From a virus: 25,726 nt of DNA. Shown here in pieces: positions 3,903-22,337 of the stretch (positions within the stretch are counted from its first letter, which is position 1; the number at the start of each line of letters is the position of its first letter). The notes beneath the pieces were generated by a model. That model was not told the origin of the DNA. It did no database searches and saw only the letters and a list, made by a program, of their open reading frames with translations. Both the position numbers and the translations under genes were made by a program. The stretch covers positions 1 through 25,726 of the IMG/VR virus record IMGVR_UViG_3300045978_000203, one strand, 5' to 3'.

Positions 3903-5774
3903 GTGGCCACCGAGAATCTCGAGCGCATCTACAAGCTGACGGTCGAAGGCAGCCAGGCCGAGCGCCAGCTGCGCGAGATCGCGGGCTCGACCGCCGGCGT
4001 CGACAAGCAGATCAACGAGTTCTCCAAGTCGCTGCAGAGCTTGCAGCGCAACCTGCTGGCCGGCCTCACGTTCGGCGCCGTCGTCGCGGGCTTCAAGTCG
4101 ATCGTCGACTCGATGAGCGAGATCGTTGACACGTCGGCCAAACTGGGCGTGGCCACCGACGAGTTGCAGAAGCTGCGCTTCGCTGCGAGCCAGCTCGGGG
4201 TCAACGCAGGCGCCCTCGAAACCGGCATCAAGAAGCTCTCGGTCGGCCTGACGGAGATCGACGACAAGAGCAGCGAGGCCGGCGCGCAGCTGCGCGCCCT
4301 CGGCGTCACGTCCAAGGACACCGTTGGCACGGCGATGGAGAAGATCGCCGATGAGTTCCAGCGCGCGGGCGATGGCGCCGGCAAGACCGCCGTCGCGATC
4401 AAGGCCTTCGGCAAGTCGGGCAACGAACTGGTTCCGATGCTCAACGAAGGCGCCGATGGCCTGCGCAGGTTCGGCGACGAAGCCGAGCGCCTGGGCCTCA
4501 TCGTGAGTGGGCGCGACCTGCAGCTGTTCGACCAGTTCGGCGACAACATGGACCGGCTGCAGCGCGTGCTGGGCTCGGTGGGCATCCAGATCGCCGGCGG
4601 CGTGGTGCCCGCCCTCACGGCACTGACCGACTCGCTGCTCAACGCGGCCAAGAGCGGCGACGCGTTCAAGAATCTCGGTACCGCGATCGGCGATGCGGTC
4701 GTGTTCCTCGCGTCGCGCTTCATCGAGCTGTGGGCCGCGGTCAAACAGTTCGCCTCGGGCCTCGGCGCGGCCGCGGGCGCCCTGGTCGCGTTCTTCTCGG
4801 GCGACTTCCGCGAGGCGGGGACGATTCTCGTCGAGTGGGTCAACGACACCAACAAGGCCGGCGAGGAGGCGAGCGCGGCGGTCAAACGGCTGCAGGAGTC
4901 GTACCAGAACTATGTCGCCAACGGCGTCGAGCCCACCATCGCGAAGCAGACCGAACTCGCGACCTCGACCAAGAAGGTCAAGGAGGCCTTCACCGAAGTG
5001 TCGGCGGCGCTGATGATCCTTGAGGAGGATCTGCGCGTGGCCTCCGAGGCTGCGAAGGCCACTGCCGATTTCAACGCGAAGATGGCCAAGCAGAAGCAGG
5101 ACGAGCTGCAGGCCGAACTCGACACGCTGAAACAGATCGAGGAGGGGCGCCTCGAAGAACTGCGCATCGCCAGCGAGGCCGCCGAAGCCACCGCCAAGTT
5201 CTACGAGAAGCAGCGCAAGGCAGCTCAGGACCTGATCACCCCCGTCTCGATCCTCAATGACAACTTCGAGGCCTTCTTCCGCAACCTAGAGAACGGCACC
5301 GCCGACGCCGAGGAGGCGTTCAAGCGCATGGTGCAGTCGATGATCGCGCAGATGCTCAAGCTGGCGGCGCAGTGGCTGGTGCTCAAGGCCTTCGGTATCG
5401 ACCTCGGCTGGGGCACCAAGAGCGGCGCCGCCGCAGATGGTTTCCAGGCGGTGGCCACCGCGCAGGCGAGCGCGCCGGCCTTCGGGCCGCGCAGCCTCGG
5501 CGCCACCCCGGTGACGGTCGATGCATCGCAGGCCTCGCTCGCACCGCTAGCGCGCACTGCGCCGCAACAGCAGCAGGGCGGCAAGGGCACCGAGGTCCAC
5601 GTCCACAACAACAACGGCTCGGCCGTCGAGGTGCAGACCAGCGAGGACGGTCGCCGCATCGACGTGCTGATCGAGCGCACGCGCCGCGCGCTGGCCGCCG
5701 ACCTGCGCGCCGGCGGCAATGTGTTCGCCTCGGCGGTGGAATCCACCTACGCGCTCGGCCGCGCGCGAGGCTGA
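3903..5774 (+). CDS. Tape measure protein
   Basis: The 623-residue protein starts at a GTG four bases after the previous stop. It has the normal tape measure composition: long helical, Ala/Glu/Lys/Gln-rich stretches, including a coiled coil around residues 320-440 with repeated ASEAAKATADF / ASEAAEATAKF units. Hydrophobic segments occur near residues 53-65 (LAGLTFGAVVAGF) and 275-300 (LGAAAGALVAFF). KLRFAASQLGVNAGALE near residue 90 is typical of the family. It would scaffold the tail tube and be ejected at infection. At about 1.5 angstroms per residue the tail would be near 90-95 nm, which is short for a siphovirus. The Gln-rich C-terminus (APQQQQGG) and LAADLRAGGNVFASAVESTY end are typical. 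Confidence 0.88.
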   Translation: MATENLERIYKLTVEGSQAERQLREIAGSTAGVDKQINEFSKSLQSLQRNLLAGLTFGAVVAGFKSIVDSMSEIVDTSAKLGVATDELQKLRFAASQLGVNAGALETGIKKLSVGLTEIDDKSSEAGAQLRALGVTSKDTVGTAMEKIADEFQRAGDGAGKTAVAIKAFGKSGNELVPMLNEGADGLRRFGDEAERLGLIVSGRDLQLFDQFGDNMDRLQRVLGSVGIQIAGGVVPALTALTDSLLNAAKSGDAFKNLGTAIGDAVVFLASRFIELWAAVKQFASGLGAAAGALVAFFSGDFREAGTILVEWVNDTNKAGEEASAAVKRLQESYQNYVANGVEPTIAKQTELATSTKKVKEAFTEVSAALMILEEDLRVASEAAKATADFNAKMAKQKQDELQAELDTLKQIEEGRLEELRIASEAAEATAKFYEKQRKAAQDLITPVSILNDNFEAFFRNLENGTADAEEAFKRMVQSMIAQMLKLAAQWLVLKAFGIDLGWGTKSGAAADGFQAVATAQASAPAFGPRSLGATPVTVDASQASLAPLARTAPQQQQGGKGTEVHVHNNNGSAVEVQTSEDGRRIDVLIERTRRALAADLRAGGNVFASAVESTYALGRARG

Positions 5775-6298: not shown

Positions 6299-6684
6299 CC
6301 CCCTGCCTGCGCATCGCCGACGTGCAGGACCTCATCGGCAAGCCGTACCAGCTCGGGGCGCGCGGGCCCGATGCCTTCGACTGCTGGGGCCTGTGCGCCG
6401 AGGTCTACCGCCGCGGCGGCATCGTGCTGCCCGAGTTCCGCGCCGAGTGCATGACGCACGCGCAACGCGCGGCGCTCGTCGATGACCTGGCCGACGACCA
6501 CGTCGACCTCGTGCACCTGCCCGACGACTGGTGCTTCGTCTACGTGCGGCGCGAGGGGCACATCGGAGTGCACTGGCGCGGCTCGGTGCTGCACTGCGCG
6601 CGCCCGCACGGCACCGTGCTGCAGCGGCTCGACCTGTTCCGCAGGGTGCACCCCGGCGTCGAGTTCGCGAGGTGGCGCGCATGA
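6295..6684 (+). CDS. NlpC/P60-family tail-tip peptidase
   Basis: The 129-residue protein is a small papain-like NlpC/P60 domain. The catalytic cysteine is Cys30 in DAFDCWGLCAEVY. The histidine is His89 in GHIGVHW, followed by the usual VLHCARPHG strand. An N-terminal IGKPYQLGARGPDAF strand is also typical. In tails, these domains (as in lambda gpK) cleave or bind the peptidoglycan peptide during DNA entry or help tip assembly. It lies directly before the gpJ-like gene, the expected position. Lambda gpK has an added Mov34 domain, which is absent here. Confidence 0.85.
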   Translation: MTPCLRIADVQDLIGKPYQLGARGPDAFDCWGLCAEVYRRGGIVLPEFRAECMTHAQRAALVDDLADDHVDLVHLPDDWCFVYVRREGHIGVHWRGSVLHCARPHGTVLQRLDLFRRVHPGVEFARWRA

Positions 6685-9600
6685 GCGTCACCCTCGTCAC
6701 GCTCGCCAATCCGCTCAAGCCGCACGAGCGCGAGGTCGAGCACGCCAGCGCCCCCCTGCGGCTGGACACCTGGCTGATGCAGCGCTGGCCCGGCGGCGTG
6801 CGCGGCACCCTCTCGGTGGTGATCGACGGCGTGCCGGTCGCCCCCGAAGCCTGCGAAGGCCTGGTGCTGCGCGACGGCCAGCACGTGCTGCTGATGGTGA
6901 CGCCGGGCGGGCTCTCGACCATCGCGGTCTACGTGGCCAAGGCGGTCATCGCCTACATGATCTCCAAGATCGTGTCGGCGATCTTCGGCCCCAAGAAGCC
7001 GACCGCCCTCGTCGACCAGCCGCAGGCCTCGCCCGTCTACTCGATCAGCGGCTCGCAGAACGCCGCGCGCCTGGGCGAGCCGATCCCCGTGGGCTACGGC
7101 GAGGTTATCCAGGTCCCCGACTTCGGCTCGCAGCCGTACACCTACTTTCTCAACCACGACCAGTACCTCGACGAGATCCTGGTCATCGGGCAGGGCGAGT
7201 ACGAGATCCGCGAGATGTTCGTCGGCGATTCAACCATCATGTCGCTCGAGCCGGGCATCGTGCAATGGTGGCACTACCCCGCCACGGCGCACCTTACGAG
7301 TGAGGGCGTGATCGAGGACCAGCTCACCGAGTCGTCGGGGCAGGCCTTCTATGAGAACGTCGTGTCCAGCCCCGAGGTCGGCGACCAGGAGCTGCGCAAG
7401 GGCGCGCCGATCCAGGTGCCGCCCGATATCTTCTGGGCCGGGACGTTTTTCTCAGGCTCGGCCTACGGGGATGACATCTCGGTCGAGCCGCCCGGCACCG
7501 AGGCGACCTACGCCGAGCTCGCCGCGTGGGACGACGCCCCCGAGGGTACCGAGCGCTGGGTGTTCAGCGAGACCTTCGTCGGTGAGGCTGCGGTCCACGT
7601 GTGGTCGTACTACACCTTCGTCGCGACCGCGTGGCACGGTCCTCCGTACCCGGAAGGCTCGATCCTCCCGCCCTACAACACGGTGACGCCCTCGGCCGAG
7701 CCGATCGGCTGGTTCGACTGCTGCAAGCCGGGCCGGCGCGGCAACCGGATCATGTTCGACTTCGTGTTTCCGCAGGGGATCTATACCGTCGGCGAGAGCT
7801 CGCTGGAGTCGCGCAGCTGCGTCGTGGCGATCGAGTACCAGCGTATCAATGACCTCGGCGCCCCCATCGGCACCGTCATCACGCAGACCGAGACCTTCAC
7901 CGAGTCGACGGTCAACCCGCGGCGCTACACGCTCACCTACGACCTCCCGACCCCGGGCCGTTACCGCGCCCGCTGCACGCGCACCAGCACCGAGCCCAGC
8001 TCGACGAGCGCCGCCGACCGCGTCATGTGGACAGGGTTGAAGTTCCGCATCGTGCGGCAGACCGAGCCGGTCTACGGCGACCAGGTGACGCTGGCCTGCG
8101 TGCGCATCAAGGCCACCAACGGCATCGCCTCGGCCGCTACCTCGCGCATCCGCTTCCGCGTGCGCCGCATGCTGCGCCCGCTCGGCGACCCGGCGCTCGA
8201 GATGGCGACCACGCGCAACCCTGCCGATGCCTTCGTCGACATCTACACCGACACCATCTACGGCGCAGCGCGCGACCGTTCCGAGGTCGACCTGCCCGCG
8301 CTGGCCGCGTGCCGCTCCGCCTGGTACGTGCACAACGGCTTCAACGCGGTGTTTGCTCAGCGCTCGACCGTCTTCGAGGCGCTGACGATGGCGCTGCAGG
8401 TCGTGGCTGCCGGCCCACTGCCGGTCGGCGGCCTCATGTCCGTGCAGGTCGACAGCGTCAAGGACAGCCGCGTCGCGATGTTCACCGAGGCCAACCTGCG
8501 CGACCTGGTCGTCGGCTACGAGTTCGACAAGATCGGCGAGCCGGTCGGCGTGCGCATCGAGTACCGCAGCCCCGAGAGCTTCACCCCCGCCTACGTCGTA
8601 CTGCCCGAGGGCGAGATCGATGTCGAGAACTCGACGCTGTTCGGCTGCACCGACGAGACCACCGCCGGCCAGTACGCGCAGCTGATGCTCAACCGCAAGC
8701 AATACCAGCGCAAGACCGCCACCTTCGACACCGAGCTGGAAGGCCTGATGCTGCTGCCCGGCGATCGCATCGCGATCCAGCACCAGATGCCTCGGTGGGG
8801 GCAGGTCGGCATCGTCGACGAGGTCACCGAGGGCGAAGCCGAGCCCGATCCGACGACCCTGCTCGTGCACGCCGATACCGACATCAGCGATGCGTCGCTG
8901 AACGACGCGACGCTGACGGTCGGCGGCGGGGCGCAGGTGGTGGCCTCGCCGGTCGTGTTCGGCGCGGGCTCGCTCGCGCTCGATGGCGTGGGCGACTACG
9001 TCGCTACACCCGCCCACGCGCGCTACGACCTCGGCGCTATCTCGGCTGCGACGAATCACACGTGGCGGGTGCGCGCGCGTTGGGGCGTGGCGCCCGATGC
9101 CGGCACGCGCGCGCTGCTCTCGCACGGAGCACCCGGCAACAGCGCGAGCGCGGACCTCGGCGGCTTTATGCTGTACGAGGTCGCCGGCAAGCTCGGCCTC
9201 AAGGTCAGCCAGAACGCAGCGACCAGCGCGGCGGGCGATCCATCGTTCTCCAGCGTCGTCGCGCTGCTGCACATGGACGGCGCCGATGGCTCGGTGGTGT
9301 TCACAGACAGCGCGGCCACCCCCAACACGTTCACGGTCAACGGACACGCGCAGATCGACACGGCGCAGTCGAAGTTCGGCGGCGCGTCGATGCTGCTCGA
9401 CGGCACGGGCGACTGGATCGAGTCGGCGAGCTTCGGCCCGCAGAACTTCGCCACTGGCGACTGGACCATCGAGCTGTGGGTGCGGCCGAACGCAGTCGCC
9501 GTCAAGCTGCTTGTGAACAAGGGCATCACGACGAGCTTCTCGCCGTTCCTGCTCTACCTCACCGCATCGAATCAGCCAGCGGTGCAGGGGCACAACAGTG

Positions 9601-11441
9601 CGACCGGGCTCCAGTACAACATCGCCGGCGCAGGGGCACTCTCGGTCGGGACTTGGTATCACGTTGCAGCCGTGCGCGACGGCAACACGATCCGCCTGTA
9701 CCTCAACGGCGTGCAAGTGAACAGCGTCGCCATGTCGGCGACCCTCTATCACGACAGCGCGGCGCCGCTGTCCATCGGCGCCTACGAGAACGGCACCAAT
9801 GCCTTTAATGGCTGGATCGACGAGGTGCGGATCACCAAGGGCGTGTGCCGCTACCCGAGCGGGACGACGTTCTCCGTGCCGACCGCGCCGTTCCCGGCTG
9901 CGCTCGCCCCTCAGTGGTCCGACTGGCGCACGACGAGCACGCCCATCGCCGCGCCCTCCACTTGGTACGCACTCGCCTTCGTGATCGAGGCCGGCGAGCC
10001 GCACATCTACGTCGACGGCGTCGAGCAGGCCGGCGCGTTTGTCGCAGGCGTCGATGCCGTGTCATCGTTCATCGGGCTGGACACGACGCGCGAGGACTTG
10101 CCGCTGCGCATCGGCGCGCTCGATCCAGCGGCGGCCCCGCTGGGCGACCCCCACTGGTCGAACGTCGTGCTGCTGCTGCATGGCGACGGCACGAACGGCG
10201 GCACGGTGTTTACCGACAGCAGCCCTAGCCCCAAGTCGCCGAACGTGTCGCTGGCGTCGACCTCGACTGCGCAATCGAAGTTCGGCGGCTCATCCATTCG
10301 ATTGACCGGGACCAGTGGGCAGGGCCTCAAGTACGCGGACAACGCCGCGTGGACGCTCGGCTCGGGTGCCTTCACCGTCGAGTTCTTCGTGCGCTTCGAC
10401 GACAGCGGCACGCAACGGATGCTGTTCGCACAAGCCGACTTCAGCGGCACGGCGGCGGGCTCCTCGATCTGGATCATGCGCACGGCGTCGACCGACAAAA
10501 TCGAGGCCTATGCGTTCAGCGGGTCCGCCTTCGTTTTCATCACGAGTTCGAGCACGGTCGCGGCGAACACGTGGCACCACATCGCTTTCGTGCGCAGCGG
10601 CTCGACGTACACGCTCTACATCGACGGCGTCAGCGTCGGCACGGTCAGCTCGGCCGCTGCAATCAACGACTCCAGCTCGAATCTCGGCATCGGGTCGTTC
10701 GGCTCGGCCTCCGGGCTCGTGCTGCTCGGGTACATCGACGAGCTGAGATTCACCGTCGGCGTTGCGCGCACGATCACCGTGCCGACTCGTGCATATCCGG
10801 GCTATGCGCTCGACTCGGCCGCCGTCGGTCTGTTCGAGGGCTGGCTCGACGAGCTGCACGTGATCCCCGAGGCCGCCGTCACGGGCGACTACACGCCGGA
10901 GTCCGCGCCGTTCCCCGATCCCGAGGAGGGCGGCGGCGAAGGCGGGCCCCCCGTGCTGCACCTCGACCGCGGGCTCGATTGGGACAACACGCCAGAGCCG
11001 CACGCCGTGCTGCTGTCGAGCGAGCTCAACGGCGTCAGCGCGTCCATCGAGTGCACGCGCGGCGACGACGATCACATCGTGGTGCTTGCCGAGGCGCCGC
11101 CGTTCGATCTGTTCGGCAAGGGCCAGCATCAGGAGCAGACCCGCGTCGCCTTCGGCACGATGGGCTACGAAGTGCGCGACTGGATCGTGACCGCGACGAC
11201 GCCGAACGCCGAGGTCGGCGTGCACGTCGAGGCGCTGACCTACGATCCGCGCGTCTACGAGGGTGCGATGCCTCACCAGGGGTTCCCGCCCACCGAGGGC
11301 GAGATCCCGGTCGGCGCGTGGATCGTCGCCGGCACCCCCGAGGCCCCATCGCTCGAAGTGGTCGGCGCCGGCGAGCCGGCCGACGAGTTGCCGACCGACA
11401 TCGTCGGCGGCACCCCCACCGACCCGAGTGCAGAACTCTAG
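6681..11441 (+). CDS. gpJ-like central tail tip protein with nested LamG domains
   Basis: The 1586-residue protein starts at an ATG overlapping the NlpC/P60 stop. Residues 1-75 are a gpI/gpJ-type N-terminus. Residues about 80-105 are hydrophobic (IAVYVAKAVIAYMISKIV), and the TipJ-type core follows with SPVYSISGSQNAARLGEP. The gpJ core continues to RWGQVGIVDEVT near residue 716 and resumes at VLHLDRGLDWDN near residue 1425, ending with YDPRVYEGAMPH. Between them are three LamG/concanavalin-like domains. LamG1 is in three pieces (about 725-852, 1073-1155 and 1374-1405). LamG2 (about 853-1072) and LamG3 (about 1156-1373) lie in its loops. Each inserted unit starts with DPxxSxVVxLLH and has SKFGGxS and a GWIDEVRIT/GYIDELRFT end. 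The protein forms the tail tip and probably sets host specificity. The LamG block could bind surface sugars. Confidence 0.88.
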   Translation: MSVTLVTLANPLKPHEREVEHASAPLRLDTWLMQRWPGGVRGTLSVVIDGVPVAPEACEGLVLRDGQHVLLMVTPGGLSTIAVYVAKAVIAYMISKIVSAIFGPKKPTALVDQPQASPVYSISGSQNAARLGEPIPVGYGEVIQVPDFGSQPYTYFLNHDQYLDEILVIGQGEYEIREMFVGDSTIMSLEPGIVQWWHYPATAHLTSEGVIEDQLTESSGQAFYENVVSSPEVGDQELRKGAPIQVPPDIFWAGTFFSGSAYGDDISVEPPGTEATYAELAAWDDAPEGTERWVFSETFVGEAAVHVWSYYTFVATAWHGPPYPEGSILPPYNTVTPSAEPIGWFDCCKPGRRGNRIMFDFVFPQGIYTVGESSLESRSCVVAIEYQRINDLGAPIGTVITQTETFTESTVNPRRYTLTYDLPTPGRYRARCTRTSTEPSSTSAADRVMWTGLKFRIVRQTEPVYGDQVTLACVRIKATNGIASAATSRIRFRVRRMLRPLGDPALEMATTRNPADAFVDIYTDTIYGAARDRSEVDLPALAACRSAWYVHNGFNAVFAQRSTVFEALTMALQVVAAGPLPVGGLMSVQVDSVKDSRVAMFTEANLRDLVVGYEFDKIGEPVGVRIEYRSPESFTPAYVVLPEGEIDVENSTLFGCTDETTAGQYAQLMLNRKQYQRKTATFDTELEGLMLLPGDRIAIQHQMPRWGQVGIVDEVTEGEAEPDPTTLLVHADTDISDASLNDATLTVGGGAQVVASPVVFGAGSLALDGVGDYVATPAHARYDLGAISAATNHTWRVRARWGVAPDAGTRALLSHGAPGNSASADLGGFMLYEVAGKLGLKVSQNAATSAAGDPSFSSVVALLHMDGADGSVVFTDSAATPNTFTVNGHAQIDTAQSKFGGASMLLDGTGDWIESASFGPQNFATGDWTIELWVRPNAVAVKLLVNKGITTSFSPFLLYLTASNQPAVQGHNSATGLQYNIAGAGALSVGTWYHVAAVRDGNTIRLYLNGVQVNSVAMSATLYHDSAAPLSIGAYENGTNAFNGWIDEVRITKGVCRYPSGTTFSVPTAPFPAALAPQWSDWRTTSTPIAAPSTWYALAFVIEAGEPHIYVDGVEQAGAFVAGVDAVSSFIGLDTTREDLPLRIGALDPAAAPLGDPHWSNVVLLLHGDGTNGGTVFTDSSPSPKSPNVSLASTSTAQSKFGGSSIRLTGTSGQGLKYADNAAWTLGSGAFTVEFFVRFDDSGTQRMLFAQADFSGTAAGSSIWIMRTASTDKIEAYAFSGSAFVFITSSSTVAANTWHHIAFVRSGSTYTLYIDGVSVGTVSSAAAINDSSSNLGIGSFGSASGLVLLGYIDELRFTVGVARTITVPTRAYPGYALDSAAVGLFEGWLDELHVIPEAAVTGDYTPESAPFPDPEEGGGEGGPPVLHLDRGLDWDNTPEPHAVLLSSELNGVSASIECTRGDDDHIVVLAEAPPFDLFGKGQHQEQTRVAFGTMGYEVRDWIVTATTPNAEVGVHVEALTYDPRVYEGAMPHQGFPPTEGEIPVGAWIVAGTPEAPSLEVVGAGEPADELPTDIVGGTPTDPSAEL
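9237..9896 (+). repeat. Inserted LamG unit 2 within gpJ
   Basis: About 220 codons form a full LamG unit, opening with DPSFSSVVALLHMDG and closing with DEVRITKGVCRY and PTAPFP. It sits in frame between two parts of the outer LamG1 domain, and it is similar to the unit at 10146-10799 in boundaries, length and motifs. Boundaries are judged from the protein and are accurate to a few codons. Confidence 0.65.
10146..10799 (+). repeat. Inserted LamG unit 3 within gpJ
   Basis: About 218 codons form a second full LamG unit, opening with DPHWSNVVLLLHGDG, with TAQSKFGGSS in common with unit 2, and closing with DELRFTVGVARTITVPT and RAYP. It interrupts the outer LamG1 between its RIGALDPAAAPLG strand and its FEGWLDELHVI strand. 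Confidence 0.65.
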
Positions 11442-13526: not shown

Positions 13527-14217
13527 TCGAAATCCGGTTCACGGGTTCTCCCGTGACGTGGGTTCGAATCCCACTCTCTCCGCCAAGTTGTTGATTACAT
13601 TGTGGTTTCAGGGAATTTATTGACATCGACGCGTCGTCGTTTGCAGACCCCAAACCCTGTGTAAACCCCATGTCTGCCAGTTCTGCCAGCTTTTTTGTCA
13701 CAACGGCCGCCGCGACAGCGTAGAACACCCGCTCGCCCCAGTGGCTCATGCAGTAGTTGACCGCTAGGCACACCATCCGCAGGTTGTCGGCCTCGTAGCC
13801 GCGCGACGAGTCGATGCGATCGATGCTCGGCTGCTGCGGGTGCCTGGAATCGGTGCCGATGTAGAACGGCATCCCGGATACCTCGCAAAGGCCGCCGGTT
13901 CGCGCCGCGATGTACTGCAGCACATTGATCCCAACGCCGCCGCCCTTCTTCTTCGCGCGAACCGACACGTTGGCTGCCATCGCTCGAAGCCAGCCGCCGC
14001 GGCGCAGACCGTCTTCAACCTTGCGAGTCCAACCCCGTGATAGTGCGTCTTCGTGATACTGACCGAGCACGGCGGCTGCTCGTCGCTCCGCGATCTTTCG
14101 ATTGCTCGTTCCGAGCGCAACTTCCAGCCGCTTCCCACCGGGCAGCCACTTTCGAAGCTGCCACAGGCCATTCGGGCGCCGGCGGATGGCCGGTTTCTCG
14201 GTGTTGACGAACTTCAT
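13507..14217 (-). CDS. HNH-like protein with integrase/AP2-like N-terminus, ending in attP
   Basis: The 236-residue frame starts at ATG 14217 with a strong GAGGAGGAAACG site and overlaps the int stop. Residues 15-55 (PNGLWQLRKWLPGGKRLEV then LGTSNRKIAERRAA) resemble the AP2-like arm-binding domain of integrases. Residues 108-165 (GLCEVSGMPF, then PSIDRIDSSRGYEADN, then MVCLAVNYCMSHWG) match an HNH-like nuclease group in which SIDRID stands in place of the DH pair. From about residue 211 the protein is only the antisense of the tRNA core (GGESGIRTHVTGEPVNRIS), and the stop lies 15 bases beyond the core. After integration the last few codons would come from the host tRNA. Function unknown; a mobile endonuclease or an Int accessory are both possible. 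Confidence 0.65.
   Translation of the reverse strand: MKFVNTEKPAIRRRPNGLWQLRKWLPGGKRLEVALGTSNRKIAERRAAAVLGQYHEDALSRGWTRKVEDGLRRGGWLRAMAANVSVRAKKKGGGVGINVLQYIAARTGGLCEVSGMPFYIGTDSRHPQQPSIDRIDSSRGYEADNLRMVCLAVNYCMSHWGERVFYAVAAAVVTKKLAELADMGFTQGLGSANDDASMSINSLKPQCNQQLGGESGIRTHVTGEPVNRISSQVDQA
13524..13585 (+). other. attP core: 3' half of tRNA-Ser(CGA)
   Basis: This stretch folds as the 3' half of a tRNA-Ser. It has an anticodon loop CTCGAAA (13526-13532, anticodon CGA at 13528-13530), the 3' anticodon strand TCCGG (13533-13537), and a long class II variable arm with a six-base stem CACGGG/CCCGTG (13540-13545 and 13550-13555). A T arm GTGGG-TTCGAAT-CCCAC (13558-13574), the acceptor strand TCTCTCC, a discriminator G and CCA (13583-13585) follow. 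The 5' half, with a matching acceptor strand and D arm, is absent from the bases before it, so it is not a working tRNA gene. Phages that integrate in a tRNA carry this part so the gene is rebuilt on insertion. The adjacent int gene supports attP. The left core edge is near 13524, where the anticodon stem gains a mismatch. Confidence 0.85.
13584..13596 (-). promoter_or_regulatory. Consensus IHF-type site next to attP core
   Basis: On the - strand the 13 bases read AATCAACAACTTG, a full match to the IHF consensus WATCAANNNNTTR. It directly adjoins the tRNA CCA end, on the int side. In lambda, IHF sites bend attP arms so that Int can bridge core and arm sites. A chance match is possible, but position supports function. 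Confidence 0.5.
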
Positions 14218-15188
14218 CGTTTCCTCCTCGCGCTCATCAGTTTCGGCAGCCTGTCCACCGCCCGCCTGGCGCTCTCGGGGGCGCTTTGCAGGTAGCGGCT
14301 GGTGACGCTGAGCGAGCTGTGCCCCATCACGTCGCGGATGGTCGGACCGTCGGCGCCGGTTTCGGCCAGCCAGGTGCCGAACGCATGCCGCAGGTCGTGA
14401 AACCGCAGCTTCGGCAGGCCTGCGGCCGTCCTGGCTGCGTCGAAACGCTTGTGCAGCAGCGAGACACCTATCCCGAACGGCAGGCGCCTGCGCGCGATCC
14501 TGGCGGCTTCCAGCGGCAGCGGGACAACCCTCGGTCGGCCCGACTTGCTGCGGCTGTCCACGATCGCGACCCCACCGCGCACGTCGGCCGGGGTCAGGCG
14601 CAGGATCTCGGAGCGGCGCAGGCCGGTCAGCGCCGCGAACAGGATCACGTCGCGGGTCAGCGGCTCGGCGGCAGCGGCCAGTCTGCGCACCTGGGCCGGG
14701 GTGACGTAGAGCTCGCGCGCTCGCTCGCCGGGCACCAGCTCGACGCGGCGCCCCAGCGGCTCGCGGGTCCAGCCCCAGCGCTCGGCCAGGTTGCCGACCC
14801 GGCGCAGGATGGCGAGCAGCCGGTTGATCGTGGCCGGGGCGACGTCGGCCTCGATGCCGATGCGCTTGATGGCGTCGGCCACGTCGGGCAGGGATTCGAG
14901 GCGCCGGCCGGCCGTGTGCGTGCGCACCGTCTCGACCCGGTAGCGCAGATCCTTGGCCCAGCTGCGCAGGCCCTTGGCGCTGGATTCGACCCAGCGATCG
15001 AGCGCCTGGTCGATCATGTATCGCGGTCGGCGACCAGCCGCAGCGTCGATGCGCGCGCGGCCAAGCGAGACCTCGAGCGCGCGGGCGTCGGCGAGCGTTG
15101 CGCCAGGCGGAAGTGTTCGCTCAAGGCGGCGACCGCCGCCGACGCGGACGCGGACCTGGTAGCGGTCGCCTCGCTTGCGGATTGACAT
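14214..15188 (-). CDS. int: Tyrosine recombinase (phage integrase)
   Basis: The 324-residue protein begins MSIRKRGDRYQV, with an N-terminal arm-binding region, a SAM-like core-binding domain (about 55-140) and a catalytic domain. The full active site is visible: Arg191 in TGLRRSEILRL, Lys215 in DSRSKSGRP, His264 and Arg267 in FHDLRH, His290 in MGHSSLSV, and Tyr299 in SRYLQ. It should recombine attP at 13524-13585 with a host tRNA-Ser(CGA) gene. ATG 15188 is chosen over an upstream extension, which runs antisense-like through xis and the HNH gene. It overlaps xis at its start and the HNH-like gene at its stop (ATGA). An active enzyme is likely. Confidence 0.93.
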   Translation of the reverse strand: MSIRKRGDRYQVRVRVGGGRRLERTLPPGATLADARALEVSLGRARIDAAAGRRPRYMIDQALDRWVESSAKGLRSWAKDLRYRVETVRTHTAGRRLESLPDVADAIKRIGIEADVAPATINRLLAILRRVGNLAERWGWTREPLGRRVELVPGERARELYVTPAQVRRLAAAAEPLTRDVILFAALTGLRRSEILRLTPADVRGGVAIVDSRSKSGRPRVVPLPLEAARIARRRLPFGIGVSLLHKRFDAARTAAGLPKLRFHDLRHAFGTWLAETGADGPTIRDVMGHSSLSVTSRYLQSAPESARRAVDRLPKLMSARRKR

Positions 15189-15355
15189 GCGCGCACCTGG
15201 CTGTCGGCAACGTAGCGGTCGAGCTCGGCCGGGTCGACCATCCGGCGCGATCGGATGCGCACGATAGCAAGCCGGCCGTCGGCGGCCTCGCGCTCGATTG
15301 AACGAACCGACACCCGCAGTTGCTCGGCAGCCTCTAGCAAAGTCAGCAGCCGCAT
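15014..15355 (-). CDS. xis: Excisionase (Xis), MerR-like HTH
   Basis: The 113-residue protein begins MRLLTLLEAAEQLRVSVRSIEREAADGRL and continues VRIRSRRMVDPAELDRYV. This is the normal HTH_17/excisionase form: helix-turn-helix, a wing, then a helix that starts with P-x-E-L. It would bend attachment DNA and steer Int to excision. Residues after about 57 are low-complexity Ala/Ser/Arg and overlap the int start in another frame by about 175 bases, an unusually long overlap. ATG 15355 has a GGGAG site nine bases upstream, inside the end of the HNH-AP2 gene. Its first codons repeat those at the start of that gene. Confidence 0.8.
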   Translation of the reverse strand: MRLLTLLEAAEQLRVSVRSIEREAADGRLAIVRIRSRRMVDPAELDRYVADSQVRACQSASEATATRSASASAAVAALSEHFRLAQRSPTPARSRSRLAARASTLRLVADRDT

Positions 15356-15873
15356 GCGATTTGCTCCCGCTTTGCGGCCAGATAGGCCCGCTCGGCCTCT
15401 GCCTCGGTATCGAATGACCCGAGGTAGATGTCGCGCTTGTTGACGCGGATCCGCGCCCAGAAGCGCCCGTTCTTCCCCATGGTCTGCACACCCTGCGCTG
15501 GTTGGCGGCTATCCTTTCTCGCGAACCATCGATTGTGCTGATTGACGTTCTTCGGCACGTCGCGAAGGTTCGACCACCGGTTGTCGGCGCGGTTGCCATT
15601 GATGTGGTCCACCTCGCCCCTTGGCAGCCGACCCATTTGGAGCAGGAACACCAAGCGATGCGCTTTCATGCGCTGGCCGCAAACCGTCAGAGTGACGTAG
15701 CCCTCATTGTTCAGGCCGCCAGCCACATCCCCGGCCTTGGCGCATCTGCCGCGGTCGACTCTCCAGTGAAGAACGCCCGTCATTGGGTCGTATGAAAGCA
15801 CGCGCAGCGCCTCGACGCGCAGGTGCTGCGCGGCCTCGGCCAACGTCACGAGCAGGTGCGGCGGCGTGGTCAT
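15343..15873 (-). CDS. HNH-AP2 homing-type endonuclease with a Xis-like start
   Basis: The 176-residue protein starts at ATG 15873 (GAGGAAG site), overlapping the upstream stop. Residues 24-114 are an HNH_3 domain: LSYDPMTGVLHWRV, AHRLVFLLQMGRLP, VDHINGN with Asp89-His90, then Asn102 in SNLRDV and His113 in NQHN. Residues about 125-172 are an AP2-type DNA-binding domain (GRFWARIRVNKRDIYLGSFDT then EAERAYLAAK). The first 20 residues (HLLVTLAEAAQHLRV) match the start of Xis, encoded next, and break off in the middle of the HTH. The stop overlaps the xis ATG by 13 bases. Family knowledge supports a mobile, site-specific endonuclease; inserted into xis is my inference. Confidence 0.85.
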   Translation of the reverse strand: MTTPPHLLVTLAEAAQHLRVEALRVLSYDPMTGVLHWRVDRGRCAKAGDVAGGLNNEGYVTLTVCGQRMKAHRLVFLLQMGRLPRGEVDHINGNRADNRWSNLRDVPKNVNQHNRWFARKDSRQPAQGVQTMGKNGRFWARIRVNKRDIYLGSFDTEAEAERAYLAAKREQIACGC

Positions 15874-17761: not shown

Positions 17762-18142
17762 CTACCGGGAAAGCTCGAACAGTTCGATGTAGTCCGTCGC
17801 CACCAGCCGGATCGGGGCGATGTAGCCCGCAGCAACGATCCGTTCGTGCGCGACGGTGCCGGGGATGATGCGCACGCCCTTGTCGCCGCTGTTGACCAGC
17901 TCGATGTGCAGCGTCGGCCTGGCGGGCGCGCGCCAGTCCCGCCACTTGTCGAGCAAGGCGCCACGCAGGCCCTTGCCTTGCTTCTTGGCCGGCTCGGGCT
18001 TGGCGCCGATCAGCCAGACGGTCGTGTCCCTGCTCTCGATCTCCTGTTGCACGCCGGGGTCCAGCAGCAATGACCACCCATTGCCCTGCGTGCTGACAAC
18101 GTGCACCGGGGTCGGCCCCTTGTTCGTCAGGGTCAGCAGCAT
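17762..18142 (-). CDS. Hypothetical protein downstream of bet
   Basis: The 126-residue frame starts at ATG 18142 (MLLTLTNKGPTPVHV), sharing one base with the bet stop (TGATG). It is beta-rich with a basic insert (KPEPAKKQGKGLRGALLDKWRDW). The order of strands (LTLTNKG, HIELVNSGDKGVRII, PIRLVATDYIELFEL) suggests a small beta-sandwich. No family is recognised. Cotranslation with bet suggests an early function, but nothing in the sequence states it. Confidence 0.55.
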   Translation of the reverse strand: MLLTLTNKGPTPVHVVSTQGNGWSLLLDPGVQQEIESRDTTVWLIGAKPEPAKKQGKGLRGALLDKWRDWRAPARPTLHIELVNSGDKGVRIIPGTVAHERIVAAGYIAPIRLVATDYIELFELSR

Positions 18143-18984
18143 CACTCGGTCCACCGCTTGCGATACACGGCCTGCGCCTGCGCATAGTCTTCCGGCGCCA
18201 GCATCGAATGCGCGCGGTCGATGACCAGCGCCGCCTCCTCGGCTTCCGGCGCCCGCTCGATCGCCTCGATGAACTGCGCCAGCGTCTGCGCTGGTGGGGA
18301 CAGCGGCGCGTCGGCCTGCGCGACATCTGCGGGCTCACTCGCTGGCTTTGGCGTCGCTGCCCCCTTCGACTTGCGGCCCTTGGCGATCAGCTCGTCGAGC
18401 TTCGCGGCGCCGGCCGGCGCCGGCTCGTTGGCCTCGGCCAGGTCCGCTGGCCCCATGTGCACGATGCGCCGTGCCTCGTCCTCGTCGTACAGGCCGGCGA
18501 ATCCGAACGCAATGCGCGCGCACTGGATCATCGCCTTGTGCCTGAGCATGCGGCGCGGGTGCGTGCCCCAGGGAGCGGTGCCGCGCTTGCACTCGGCCAG
18601 GTACTCGGTGATGCGGATCGGGTGCGAGCGGTCCTTGCGGTACATCGTGCAGGTGCACGATCCACCGTCCTCGGCGAACGCGAAGTCCATGCCGTCGAAC
18701 TGCGCGTGCTCGTTGATGATGCGCGCCCAGCCATCCACCGACACGAAGGGCACGATGCCGCCGTTCTTGTCGAGAAACGCGAACAGCTCGCGCGTGAACG
18801 GGTTCAGGTTGTACTGCTCCGAGACGATCAGCAGACCCATCATCGCCTCGTTGCTGATGGGCTTCTCGCTCTTGAAGCAGGTGGCTTTCAGCGTCTCGAG
18901 CATGCGCGCGGGCTCGATGCCGAAGCGTTGCGCGAAGCGCGCCACGAGCGGCATGCGGGTGGGTGTTTCAATCACTGCGTTCAT
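18142..18984 (-). CDS. bet: Bet/RecT-family single-strand annealing protein
   Basis: The 280-residue protein carries the core of the lambda Bet/RecT annealing family: SEKPISNEAMMGLLIVSEQY (about 39-58), NLNPFTRELFAFLDKNGGIV, FVSVDGWARIINEH, and TAPWGTHPRRMLRHKAMIQCARIAF. It binds single-stranded DNA made by the partner exonuclease and anneals it to complementary strands. ATG 18984 overlaps the exonuclease stop (ATGA), so the two subunits are translated together. A Pro/Ala-rich linker (about 195-235) precedes a C-terminal helical part. The longer open frame through the exonuclease gene is a shadow. Confidence 0.9.
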   Translation of the reverse strand: MNAVIETPTRMPLVARFAQRFGIEPARMLETLKATCFKSEKPISNEAMMGLLIVSEQYNLNPFTRELFAFLDKNGGIVPFVSVDGWARIINEHAQFDGMDFAFAEDGGSCTCTMYRKDRSHPIRITEYLAECKRGTAPWGTHPRRMLRHKAMIQCARIAFGFAGLYDEDEARRIVHMGPADLAEANEPAPAGAAKLDELIAKGRKSKGAATPKPASEPADVAQADAPLSPPAQTLAQFIEAIERAPEAEEAALVIDRAHSMLAPEDYAQAQAVYRKRWTE

Positions 18985-19886
18985 GCGTTCTCCATCGCGT
19001 TGCGAAGCCACTTCCAGTCCGGCGGCTCGAGCACCTGCACCCCCTGCGGGTAGCCCGGCCACGAGTCCTCGCGCGTGCATTGCGCCCAGATGTCGAGCGC
19101 GCGCCGGCAGCGCTTCCAGCCGTAGGCCACCCAGTCGTCTGGCAGCGCGTACAGCGCGGCGGCGTGCGGGAACGCGCTCTCGACGCAGCCGAACAGGAAG
19201 GCGTGCACCGGCAGGCCGGTGGCGCGCCCCCAGCCGTGCGTGTACCAGGCGGCCTGCTCGGCATAGCCGAAGTTCACCACCGAGCTGGCGAACGCTTCCG
19301 GCGCCGCGCTCACCGTGGTCTTGGCGTCGACCAGCACCCAGCCCCAGGTCTCCCGGTCGTCGCCGACGAGCACCGCCAGGTCGGGCCGGCACTTGCACAG
19401 CGCGCCGGTGACGTCGTCGCTCCAGTAGGCCGAGTGCTCGGCCAGCACCACCGGCATGTCGAGCAGCTCGGTGATCTGCGGCACGGCCAGCAGCGCGTCG
19501 GACTGCGCGTACGCGATGTCGCGCTGCGCCGGCGTGACGTGTTCGCGATCCGTGTTCGCTGCCTCGAAGGCCTTCCACTCCTTCGAGGCGCGCGTCTTGA
19601 CCCGCGGCCCCACGGCGTAGCGCACGTCGAACTGGTCGCGCTCGAGCAGCGCGCAGTGCATCAGCGTGCCGGCGAACATCGCGTCGGTCGGCTCGGCGTG
19701 CACCCCGTCCTGGTGTTCGGCCAGGTGCAGCTCGTGGAAGTGGAACGGGGTCTTGAGCAGCCGCATGAGCTCGGTGCGCGAGAGGCCGGGGCCAGCGTGG
19801 TAGTCCTCGGCGCTGTTGCGCATCACGCACGGCGCGCTCAGCACCGCCGAGATCGCGCCCTCGTGCCAGGCGACGGTGTCGTTCAC
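18981..19886 (-). CDS. PD-(D/E)XK exonuclease, RecE/DUF3799-like
   Basis: The 301-residue protein has the RecB/RecE nuclease plan: SRTELMRLLKTPFHFHEL near residues 36-53, His77 in GTLMHCALLE, Asp169 in CRPDLAVL, Asp187 and Lys189 in VLVDAKTT, and the QxxxY motif at Gln211-Tyr215 in QAAWY. It should digest one strand of double-stranded DNA ends and hand the other to Bet. The GTG start at 19886 is chosen because it overlaps the stop of the upstream microprotein and precedes the first conserved segment. The preceding in-frame residues are Arg/Pro-rich and look non-coding. Confidence 0.88.
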   Translation of the reverse strand: MNDTVAWHEGAISAVLSAPCVMRNSAEDYHAGPGLSRTELMRLLKTPFHFHELHLAEHQDGVHAEPTDAMFAGTLMHCALLERDQFDVRYAVGPRVKTRASKEWKAFEAANTDREHVTPAQRDIAYAQSDALLAVPQITELLDMPVVLAEHSAYWSDDVTGALCKCRPDLAVLVGDDRETWGWVLVDAKTTVSAAPEAFASSVVNFGYAEQAAWYTHGWGRATGLPVHAFLFGCVESAFPHAAALYALPDDWVAYGWKRCRRALDIWAQCTREDSWPGYPQGVQVLEPPDWKWLRNAMENA

Positions 19887-21302: not shown

Positions 21303-22337
21303 ATGGCCCGTGCACGACTCCTCAAGCCGGGGTTCTTCACGAACCCCGAACTCGGTGCACTGCCGTTCGAGGCGCGCCTGCTGTTCGCTGGGTTGTGGAC
21401 GATCGCAGATCGTGAGGGTCGGCTGCAGGATCGACCGCAGCGCATTCGCGCTGAGGTGTTCCCGTTCGATGACCTTGACTGCGATGAGCTGTTGCAGCAG
21501 CTGCACGAGGCAGGGCTGATCGTGCGCTACCGCGTCGACGACGCTGCGCTCATCGCGGTCCCGACGTGGGTTGTGCATCAGCAGTGTCACCGTCGCGAGT
21601 CCGCGAGCAATCTGCCGCCGCCCGAGCCTGGGTCAGGCCTAGGCATGTCCAAGGGCGAGCCTGGGTCAGGCCTAGGCATGTCCAAGGGCGAGCCTGGGTC
21701 AGGCCTAGGCATGTCCAAGGCCGAGCCTGGGTCAGGCCTAGGCATGTCCAAGGCCGAGCCTGGGTCAGGCCTAGGCATGTCCAAGGCTGCCGGTATTCGG
21801 TATACGGTATACGGAAGCGGTATTAAGCGCGCTTCGCGCGCAACGCGCGCGCGCGAGGCCGAACCCCCGGACCCCGAACCCCCGAACCCCGAACCCCCGG
21901 ACCCCGAACCCCCGAACCCCGAACCCCCAACCTCGAACACCGCGACTCCCGAAGCCGCGGTCTGCCTCGCGCTGCGGCGCGCCGGCATCGCTCGCGTGAA
22001 CCCTGCGCACCCGACACTGCACGCCCTCGTGGCAGCCGGTGCGGAGCCGCAGGAGTTCCTCGACGCAGCGAGCGGCGCGCTCGGCAAGGCGCACCCCTTC
22101 GCCTACGTCCTCGGCGTGGTCGAAGGGCGCCGCCGCGATGCGCTCAACGTCGCCAACGGGACGCACACCCTGCCACCGGATCCCGAGGCCTGGCGCGACA
22201 CCCACGACGGGGTGCTCAACCGCGCGAACAACCTCGGACTCGAGCGCTGGGACCAGGGCATCACCGAGGACTGGCACACCTTCCGCCGCCGCGTGATTGC
22301 GGCGCACGAAGCGCGGGCGAAGGGGAGCAGCGCATGA
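21303..22337 (+). CDS. Replication initiator, O-like, with internal iterons
   Basis: The 344-residue protein begins MARARLLKPGFFTNPELGAL and continues PFEARLLFAGLWTIADREGRLQDRPQRIRAEVFPFDD, the well-known N-terminal winged-helix domain of phage replication proteins. Residues 108-162 are five tandem copies of an 11-residue repeat (EPGSGLGMSK plus G/A), and residues 188-215 are a Pro/Glu-rich repeat (EPPDPEPPNP). The C-terminal part (about 215-344) contains AAVCLALRRAGIARVNPAHP and an end with RVIAAHEARAK. It probably recognises the iterons and loads host replication proteins, as lambda O does. Its position after the regulators fits. Confidence 0.8.
   Translation: MARARLLKPGFFTNPELGALPFEARLLFAGLWTIADREGRLQDRPQRIRAEVFPFDDLDCDELLQQLHEAGLIVRYRVDDAALIAVPTWVVHQQCHRRESASNLPPPEPGSGLGMSKGEPGSGLGMSKGEPGSGLGMSKAEPGSGLGMSKAEPGSGLGMSKAAGIRYTVYGSGIKRASRATRAREAEPPDPEPPNPEPPDPEPPNPEPPTSNTATPEAAVCLALRRAGIARVNPAHPTLHALVAAGAEPQEFLDAASGALGKAHPFAYVLGVVEGRRRDALNVANGTHTLPPDPEAWRDTHDGVLNRANNLGLERWDQGITEDWHTFRRRVIAAHEARAKGSSA
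21624..21788 (+). repeat. Five tandem 33-bp iterons (probable origin)
   Basis: Five units start at 21624, 21657, 21690, 21723 and 21756. The first 30 bases are the same in every unit by eye (GAGCCTGGGTCAGGCCTAGG, then CATGTCCAAG); only the last bases vary (GGC, GGC, GCC, GCC, GCT). Each unit has short palindromes, AGGCCT and CCTAGG. Lambda's origin likewise consists of iterons inside gene O. There are no spacers, so it is not a CRISPR array. Confidence 0.7.
21789..21828 (+). other. AT-richer element with CGGTAT repeats (candidate unwinding region)
   Basis: Directly after the iterons, CGGTAT or CGGTATA occurs four times (CGGTATT, CGGTATA, CGGTATA, then CGGTATT). It contains much more A/T than the sequence on either side. 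In lambda an AT-rich stretch follows the iterons and is where strands separate. The role here is inferred. Confidence 0.5.
21863..21930 (+). repeat. C-rich tandem repeat (quadruplex-prone on - strand)
   Basis: CCCCC and CCCC runs separated by GAA or GGA repeat about ten times, encoding EPPDPEPPNP units. The - strand has regularly spaced runs of four to five G, so it could form a quadruplex. It lies next to the probable origin and could affect fork or polymerase movement. It could also be just a linker repeat. Confidence 0.55.

Follow-up and report, generated by a model that had tools for sequence, protein, structure and literature searches.

A LamG domain proposed to hold two further LamG domains in its loops in the gpJ-like tail hub protein of an uncultured virus

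The window analysed here (the whole stretch of 25,726 nucleotides, positions 1 to 25,726 of IMG/VR record IMGVR_UViG_3300045978_000203) encodes a gpJ-like tail-tip protein. A hairpin of its hub probably displays a LamG domain, two loops of which have accepted two complete LamG domains. The probability of this reading, in which cassettes are inserted recursively and the resulting head has a putative binding role, is estimated at about 0.83. An earlier note on this DNA, made from the letters alone, had described the first LamG of the protein as broken twice by complete LamG units, and the order of the segments, the Pfam matches, and the homology to L005, a relative with an uninterrupted domain, all agree with that description (Table 1).

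Table 1. Features of the gpJ-like protein and of its LamG nest, in window coordinates
Feature	Position	Strand	Residues	Basis
gpJ-like tail-tip / baseplate hub protein, 1586 aa, carrier of the nest	6681..11441	+		phrog_469, phrog_31; Pfam Phage-tail_3, FNIII-A_GpJ
gpJ hairpin strand ahead of the nest (GIVDEVT)	8808..8828	+		phrog_469 profile reaches 781; empty site in L010
Outer LamG, segment 1	8853..9236	+	725-852	blastp to contiguous LamG of L005, E-value 2 × 10−18; tiles onto L005 LamG
Insert A, full LamG unit (DPSFSS...PTAPFP), 220 codons	9237..9896	+	853-1072	Pfam Laminin_G_3; unit HMM; sandwich model
Outer LamG, segment 2	9897..10145	+	1073-1155	blastp to L005, E-value 1 × 10−18, 53% identity
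Insert B, full LamG unit (DPHWSN...RAYP), 218 codons	10146..10799	+	1156-1373	Pfam; unit HMM; sandwich model
Outer LamG, segment 3 (FEGWLDELHVI...TPESAPFP)	10800..~10916	+	1374-~1412	blastp to L005, E-value 2 × 10−7
gpJ resumes (VLHLDRGLDW...), remaining hub and C-terminal tail	10953..11438	+		phrog_469 789-893; homologous to L004, L005, L008, L010

Profile searches revealed that residues 1–716 of the protein match phrog_469 ('tail protein'; E-value, 1.4 × 10−96) as well as phrog_31 ('central tail fiber J'; E-value, 2.5 × 10−47). The gpJ identity is supported on both sides of the nest: positions 403–781 of phrog_469 are matched before it and positions 789–893 after it, where the last 162 residues of the protein hit the same profile again (E-value, 6.6 × 10−11). 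Between profile positions 781 and 789, where the match is continuous in the relative L010, the window protein is cut by about 700 residues of LamG sequence. The flanking matches bear out the placement of the block given in the earlier note, between VDEVT and VLHLDRGLDW of gpJ. The gpJ sequence is back by residue 1425 and ends about 160 residues past the nest, and in this part the profile matches were to phrog_469 only, with none to FNIII-1, FNIII-2 or the central fibre. The C-terminal tail (11300–11438) carries short repeated motifs of the type (I/V)xAGTPxDPS, which are also found at the C-termini of the gpJ proteins of L008 and L010. Antisense to gpJ lies an 850-codon open frame (7452–10004, − strand), which is probably a by-product of high GC3. 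The window also encodes an integrase (14214–15599, −), a Bet/RecT-like annealing protein (18142–19830, −), and a replication initiation protein (21303–22337, +); judging from these genes, the contig appears to be a portion of a temperate siphophage genome. Bacterial and archaeal genomes, scanned twice, yielded no relatives of the gpJ hub.

Within the gpJ ORF, the Laminin_G_3 family (PF13385) was found three times (overall E-value, 1.4 × 10−49), with a score of 168.6 bits for the whole protein and 80.0 and 63.6 bits for the two inserts alone, against a gathering cut-off of 27.6. The lengths of the inserts are those given in the earlier note, and each of them is directly preceded by a glycine (G852 before insert A, G1155 before insert B). 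The outer LamG, at about 235 residues, is close in size to the inserts (about 220). Since the window has linker residues that are missing in the uninterrupted LamG of L005 (AATSAAG and AALAP at one junction, DPAAAPLG and GYALDS at the other), the exact edges of the inserts are uncertain by some residues. The start proposed for the block (8853) holds, but the end (10900) falls short, as the conserved DYTPESAPFP carries the outer domain further, to about codon 1412. A single open frame runs across all four junctions, and the third-position GC content is uniform (0.88–0.94).

The comparison with L005 carries most of the argument for the split. The gpJ hub of L005 is 56% identical to that of the window over gpJ residues 1–716, and has one uninterrupted LamG at the equivalent place. 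When aligned pairwise to the window, L005 falls on residues 599–844, 1078–1147, and 1385–1534 in all five MAFFT modes, and the three outer pieces are colinear with its contiguous LamG (blastp E-values in Table 1), tiling it in order, without overlap, and supplying every LamG strand. The joined outer LamG of the window and the LamG of L005 share 46.7% identity over 225 aligned residues, and the second outer segment is 53–60% identical to its counterparts in L005 and L008. Judged on the sequences, the match of the outer pieces to the L005 domain is not due to chance. Other outer-type LamGs (that of L004, the last of L008, and that of L111), aligned singly to the window, fit the contiguous inserts A or B instead, and direct support for the split therefore comes from close relatives only; these other LamGs were left out of the evidence. 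A search of viral contigs in which just outer segment 1 served as the query gave no matches. When nested relatives, or mixed fragments, were put into a global multiple alignment, the segments were misplaced; the only usable alignments were pairwise ones to L005 and sets composed with care. The earlier note had suggested looking for homologues with just the outer LamG, and L005 is one, while L010 is without any LamG.

The predicted structures were examined next to the alignments. An AlphaFold2 model was built for window residues 599–1534 from an alignment composed by hand, which kept the three-segment fit of L005 and in which one homologue covered the outer pieces. Inserts A and B were modelled as confident full LamG sandwiches, and the fold search of this model gave VIA Z-scores of up to 20.3 for insert A and up to 20.9 for insert B. 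The best solved neighbour of both is domain 4 of the arabinanase AbnA (insert B: Z, 20.9; rmsd, 2.4; 189 aligned residues; insert A: Z, 20.1). All of the 50 VIA matches listed were to the two inserts, and none was informative on the outer domain, the pieces of which were modelled with a pLDDT of mostly 40–70 (pTM of the model, 0.38). The outer LamG of L005 was modelled as a single sandwich (pLDDT about 80–98) with one continuous match to AbnA domain 4 (residues 127–358; Z, 20.0; rmsd, 2.6; 191 aligned residues). The structure prediction proposed in the earlier note has thus returned sandwiches for both inserts and for the outer domain of L005, whereas for the outer pieces of the window the interleaving comes by way of homology. 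These pieces thus probably form one interleaved sandwich, with homology carrying most of the weight and the pieces themselves being modelled at moderate confidence.

On the L005 model, junction A falls into the loop between strands 245–251 and 258–263, and junction B into that between strands 320–322 and 335–344. Every junction of the window and of L008 maps to an inter-strand loop, although location in a loop is by itself weak evidence, given that some 63% of the residues of a LamG lie outside strands. When 193 places were ranked by indel-richness over 144 independent LamG units of other contigs, junction A came first and junction B 11th; the window and L008 junctions together (ranks 1, 11, 16, and 8) are among the most indel-rich places.

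Inserts A and B match a 215-position HMM of the LamG unit over its full length. They are 37% identical in protein and 53.5% in DNA, and hence do not represent a recent duplication. The family to which they belong is very common in viruses, a single scan having found at least 587 such stretches, and its units stand either alone or in head-to-tail rows of as many as nine or ten. The ends of the cassette are conserved, from DP...LLH.DG to an APFP-like motif. With the same boundaries and fold, the two inserts are ordinary members of the group of Laminin_G_3 units that form tandems in the tail and baseplate proteins of phages (PHROGs 3545, 13163, 32294, and others). However, in nearly all scanned loci these units stand alone or head to tail, not one inside another, whereas those of the window are nested.

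The relatives form a graded series at the same site. In L010, the gpJ hairpin is bare and closed by a short turn, and it is likewise empty in the gpJ proteins of seven cultured phages and in L014 and L017; L005 has one LamG, the window a LamG with two LamG inserts, and L008 a LamG with four extra domains. The outer LamG of L008 is 58% identical to the joined pieces of the window. It holds one LamG in a loop unlike those used in the window, between strands 219–224 and 237–242, and at the loop equivalent to the second of the window it has SPRY, LamG, and LamG. The SPRY domain (8287–8859) thus shares the loop of insert B with two LamGs. In L004 (3282–4820), a LamG is found at the same gpJ hairpin, flanked by sequence with neither a Pfam match nor LamG character; its ends are insert-type and its middle is outer-type, as if recombined. 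In L015 (11035–11520), a different gpJ has an insert of another type, of about 145 residues and with no Pfam match, at the same hairpin. As L004, L015, L005, the window, and L008 all have inserts at one hairpin, it is a repeatedly used landing place.

The hairpin may itself belong to an inserted domain. In gpJ of phage lambda, a β-sandwich (residues 483–569) is inserted in the hub domain HDIV (PMC10721106), and the window hairpin lands shortly past chain residue 481 of the solved gpJ 9e7m in a weak alignment (E-value, 0.056). It appears, as far as this alignment goes, to lie in the counterpart of the HDIV-inserted sandwich. If so, the full order of the nest would be HDIV, inserted sandwich, outer LamG, and inner LamGs. 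The three levels of nesting claimed in the earlier note would then be a minimum. Both proteins have domains inserted in a hub of the same gpJ/BHP family, but the inserts of lambda gpJ are single, of differing folds, and do not host more copies of the same family.

A LamG split by another LamG was also found in L056, at model position 58 (the pieces covering positions 6–58, 6–214, and 58–214). This nest occupies residues 160–589 of the ORF starting at 4527 (+), which encodes a structural protein with no relationship to gpJ; in eight relatives of the L056 protein (L114–L121), LamG is absent from this place. Its junction is outside of the indel-rich loops (rank 76 of 193). Since this nest is in an unrelated protein with relatives that lack LamG, the LamG-in-LamG arrangement has arisen at least twice.

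The most likely explanation of the arrangement in the window is as follows. The gpJ-like hub would present a LamG, a concanavalin-like jelly-roll, from the tip of a β-hairpin, and the displayed domain would then act as an acceptor, with full LamG units entering two of its loops. The ends of a LamG unit presumably lie next to each other, and units of the insert type also follow one another head to tail in other viral proteins; because of this presumed closeness, a loop could take up a whole cassette while the receiver stays folded. In-frame cassettes would be supplied by recombination among phage genomes, either illegitimate or homologous, and selection would retain those at exposed, indel-tolerant loops, favouring tail tips with new or extra binding heads. 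The outcome would be a branched head with three lectin-like sandwiches per gpJ chain. The gpJ protein of lambda is trimeric, and a trimer of the same kind would carry nine sandwiches per tail tip. The added sandwiches would add or alter the binding of glycans on the host surface, or of other receptors, leaving the hub core unchanged.

By analogy, the LamGs of the nest may bind receptors or carbohydrates. In the evolved Dits of siphophages, one loop of the galectin domain accommodates a carbohydrate-binding module (CBM), and binding was assayed for some of these modules (PMC9692632, PMC6669499). The closest fold match of inserts A and B and of the L005 outer LamG, a LamG-type domain of AbnA, was solved with an arabino-oligosaccharide. 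These two lines support, rather than demonstrate, a putative binding role. They also argue against the view that the nest is real but serves chiefly to space out or enlarge the tail tip, ligands being bound by the innermost domains only or not at all, which we consider unlikely: the fold match to a domain solved with a sugar ligand extends to all three LamGs, and the inserts of evolved Dits in other siphophages are carbohydrate-binding modules that have been put to binding assays.

A former tandem of three or more LamGs, the first and last of which have decayed so that the outer pieces are non-domain leftovers or stem from two LamGs, is an improbable origin. The LamG unit family is very often tandem, and deletion from a tandem array could also yield the split halves of L056, but the ordered and complete set of strands that tile the L005 domain, the single-LamG and empty states of L005 and L010 at the same site, the L008 outer domain cut at another loop, and the conservation of segment 2, which is hence not decaying, all speak against it, and this origin was rejected. 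An assembly chimera of several LamG genes is hardly credible and was likewise rejected, for although the window comes from one record of an uncultured virus and assemblers can be misled by repeated LamG sequences, the frame is continuous over the four junctions with uniform GC3, inserts A and B have diverged to only 37% identity, and the parallel nest of L008 is present as an identical protein in two contigs and as a truncated copy in a third.

The preferred reading, in which complete LamG domains are nested in the loops of a third, has precedents in part. Evolved Dits likewise place a glycan-binding β-sandwich in a loop of a tail-tip β-sandwich, binding in the window being by analogy; they differ in that the protein is Dit and not gpJ, that there is one level of insertion, and that insert and host are of different families. 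Multi-level nested insertions have been catalogued in ECOD, where the RNA polymerase of cyanobacteria reaches six levels, and most of these insertions join different superfamilies, with inserts smaller than their hosts (median of 115 versus 199 residues) (PMC13114784). A recursive A1-B1-C-B2-A2 architecture with several inserts per host is therefore already known in principle, whereas in the window, host and inserts are of the same family and of nearly equal size (about 235 versus 220 residues). A literature search, which covered few subscription journals, found no description of a LamG nested in a LamG, nor of such nesting in a phage tail hub; the remark of the earlier note that two domains in the loops of a third are not known to have been described agrees with this result within the same coverage. 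Domain insertion and nesting are both known, but their recursive form within one family, as proposed here for the tail hub of a phage, appears to be a new variety of them.

The nest departs from the usual pattern, in which a host receives smaller inserts unrelated to it, and it calls for caution, as nested proteins are misread when they are annotated as colinear, non-interleaved domains or put through an ordinary multiple alignment. Natural series graded from an empty site through one domain and two same-family inserts to four extra domains, in part at other loops, are rare, and the present one makes the stepwise growth of a viral adhesin directly testable. The chances are about even, in our estimate, that the hairpin and the LamG loops together act as a recursive landing platform, where lectin cassettes of the same family nest and a branched, tree-like adhesin grows at different loops in different relatives. 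If this is true, self-nesting would be a general route by which phages gain more receptor-binding heads, beside tandem repetition.
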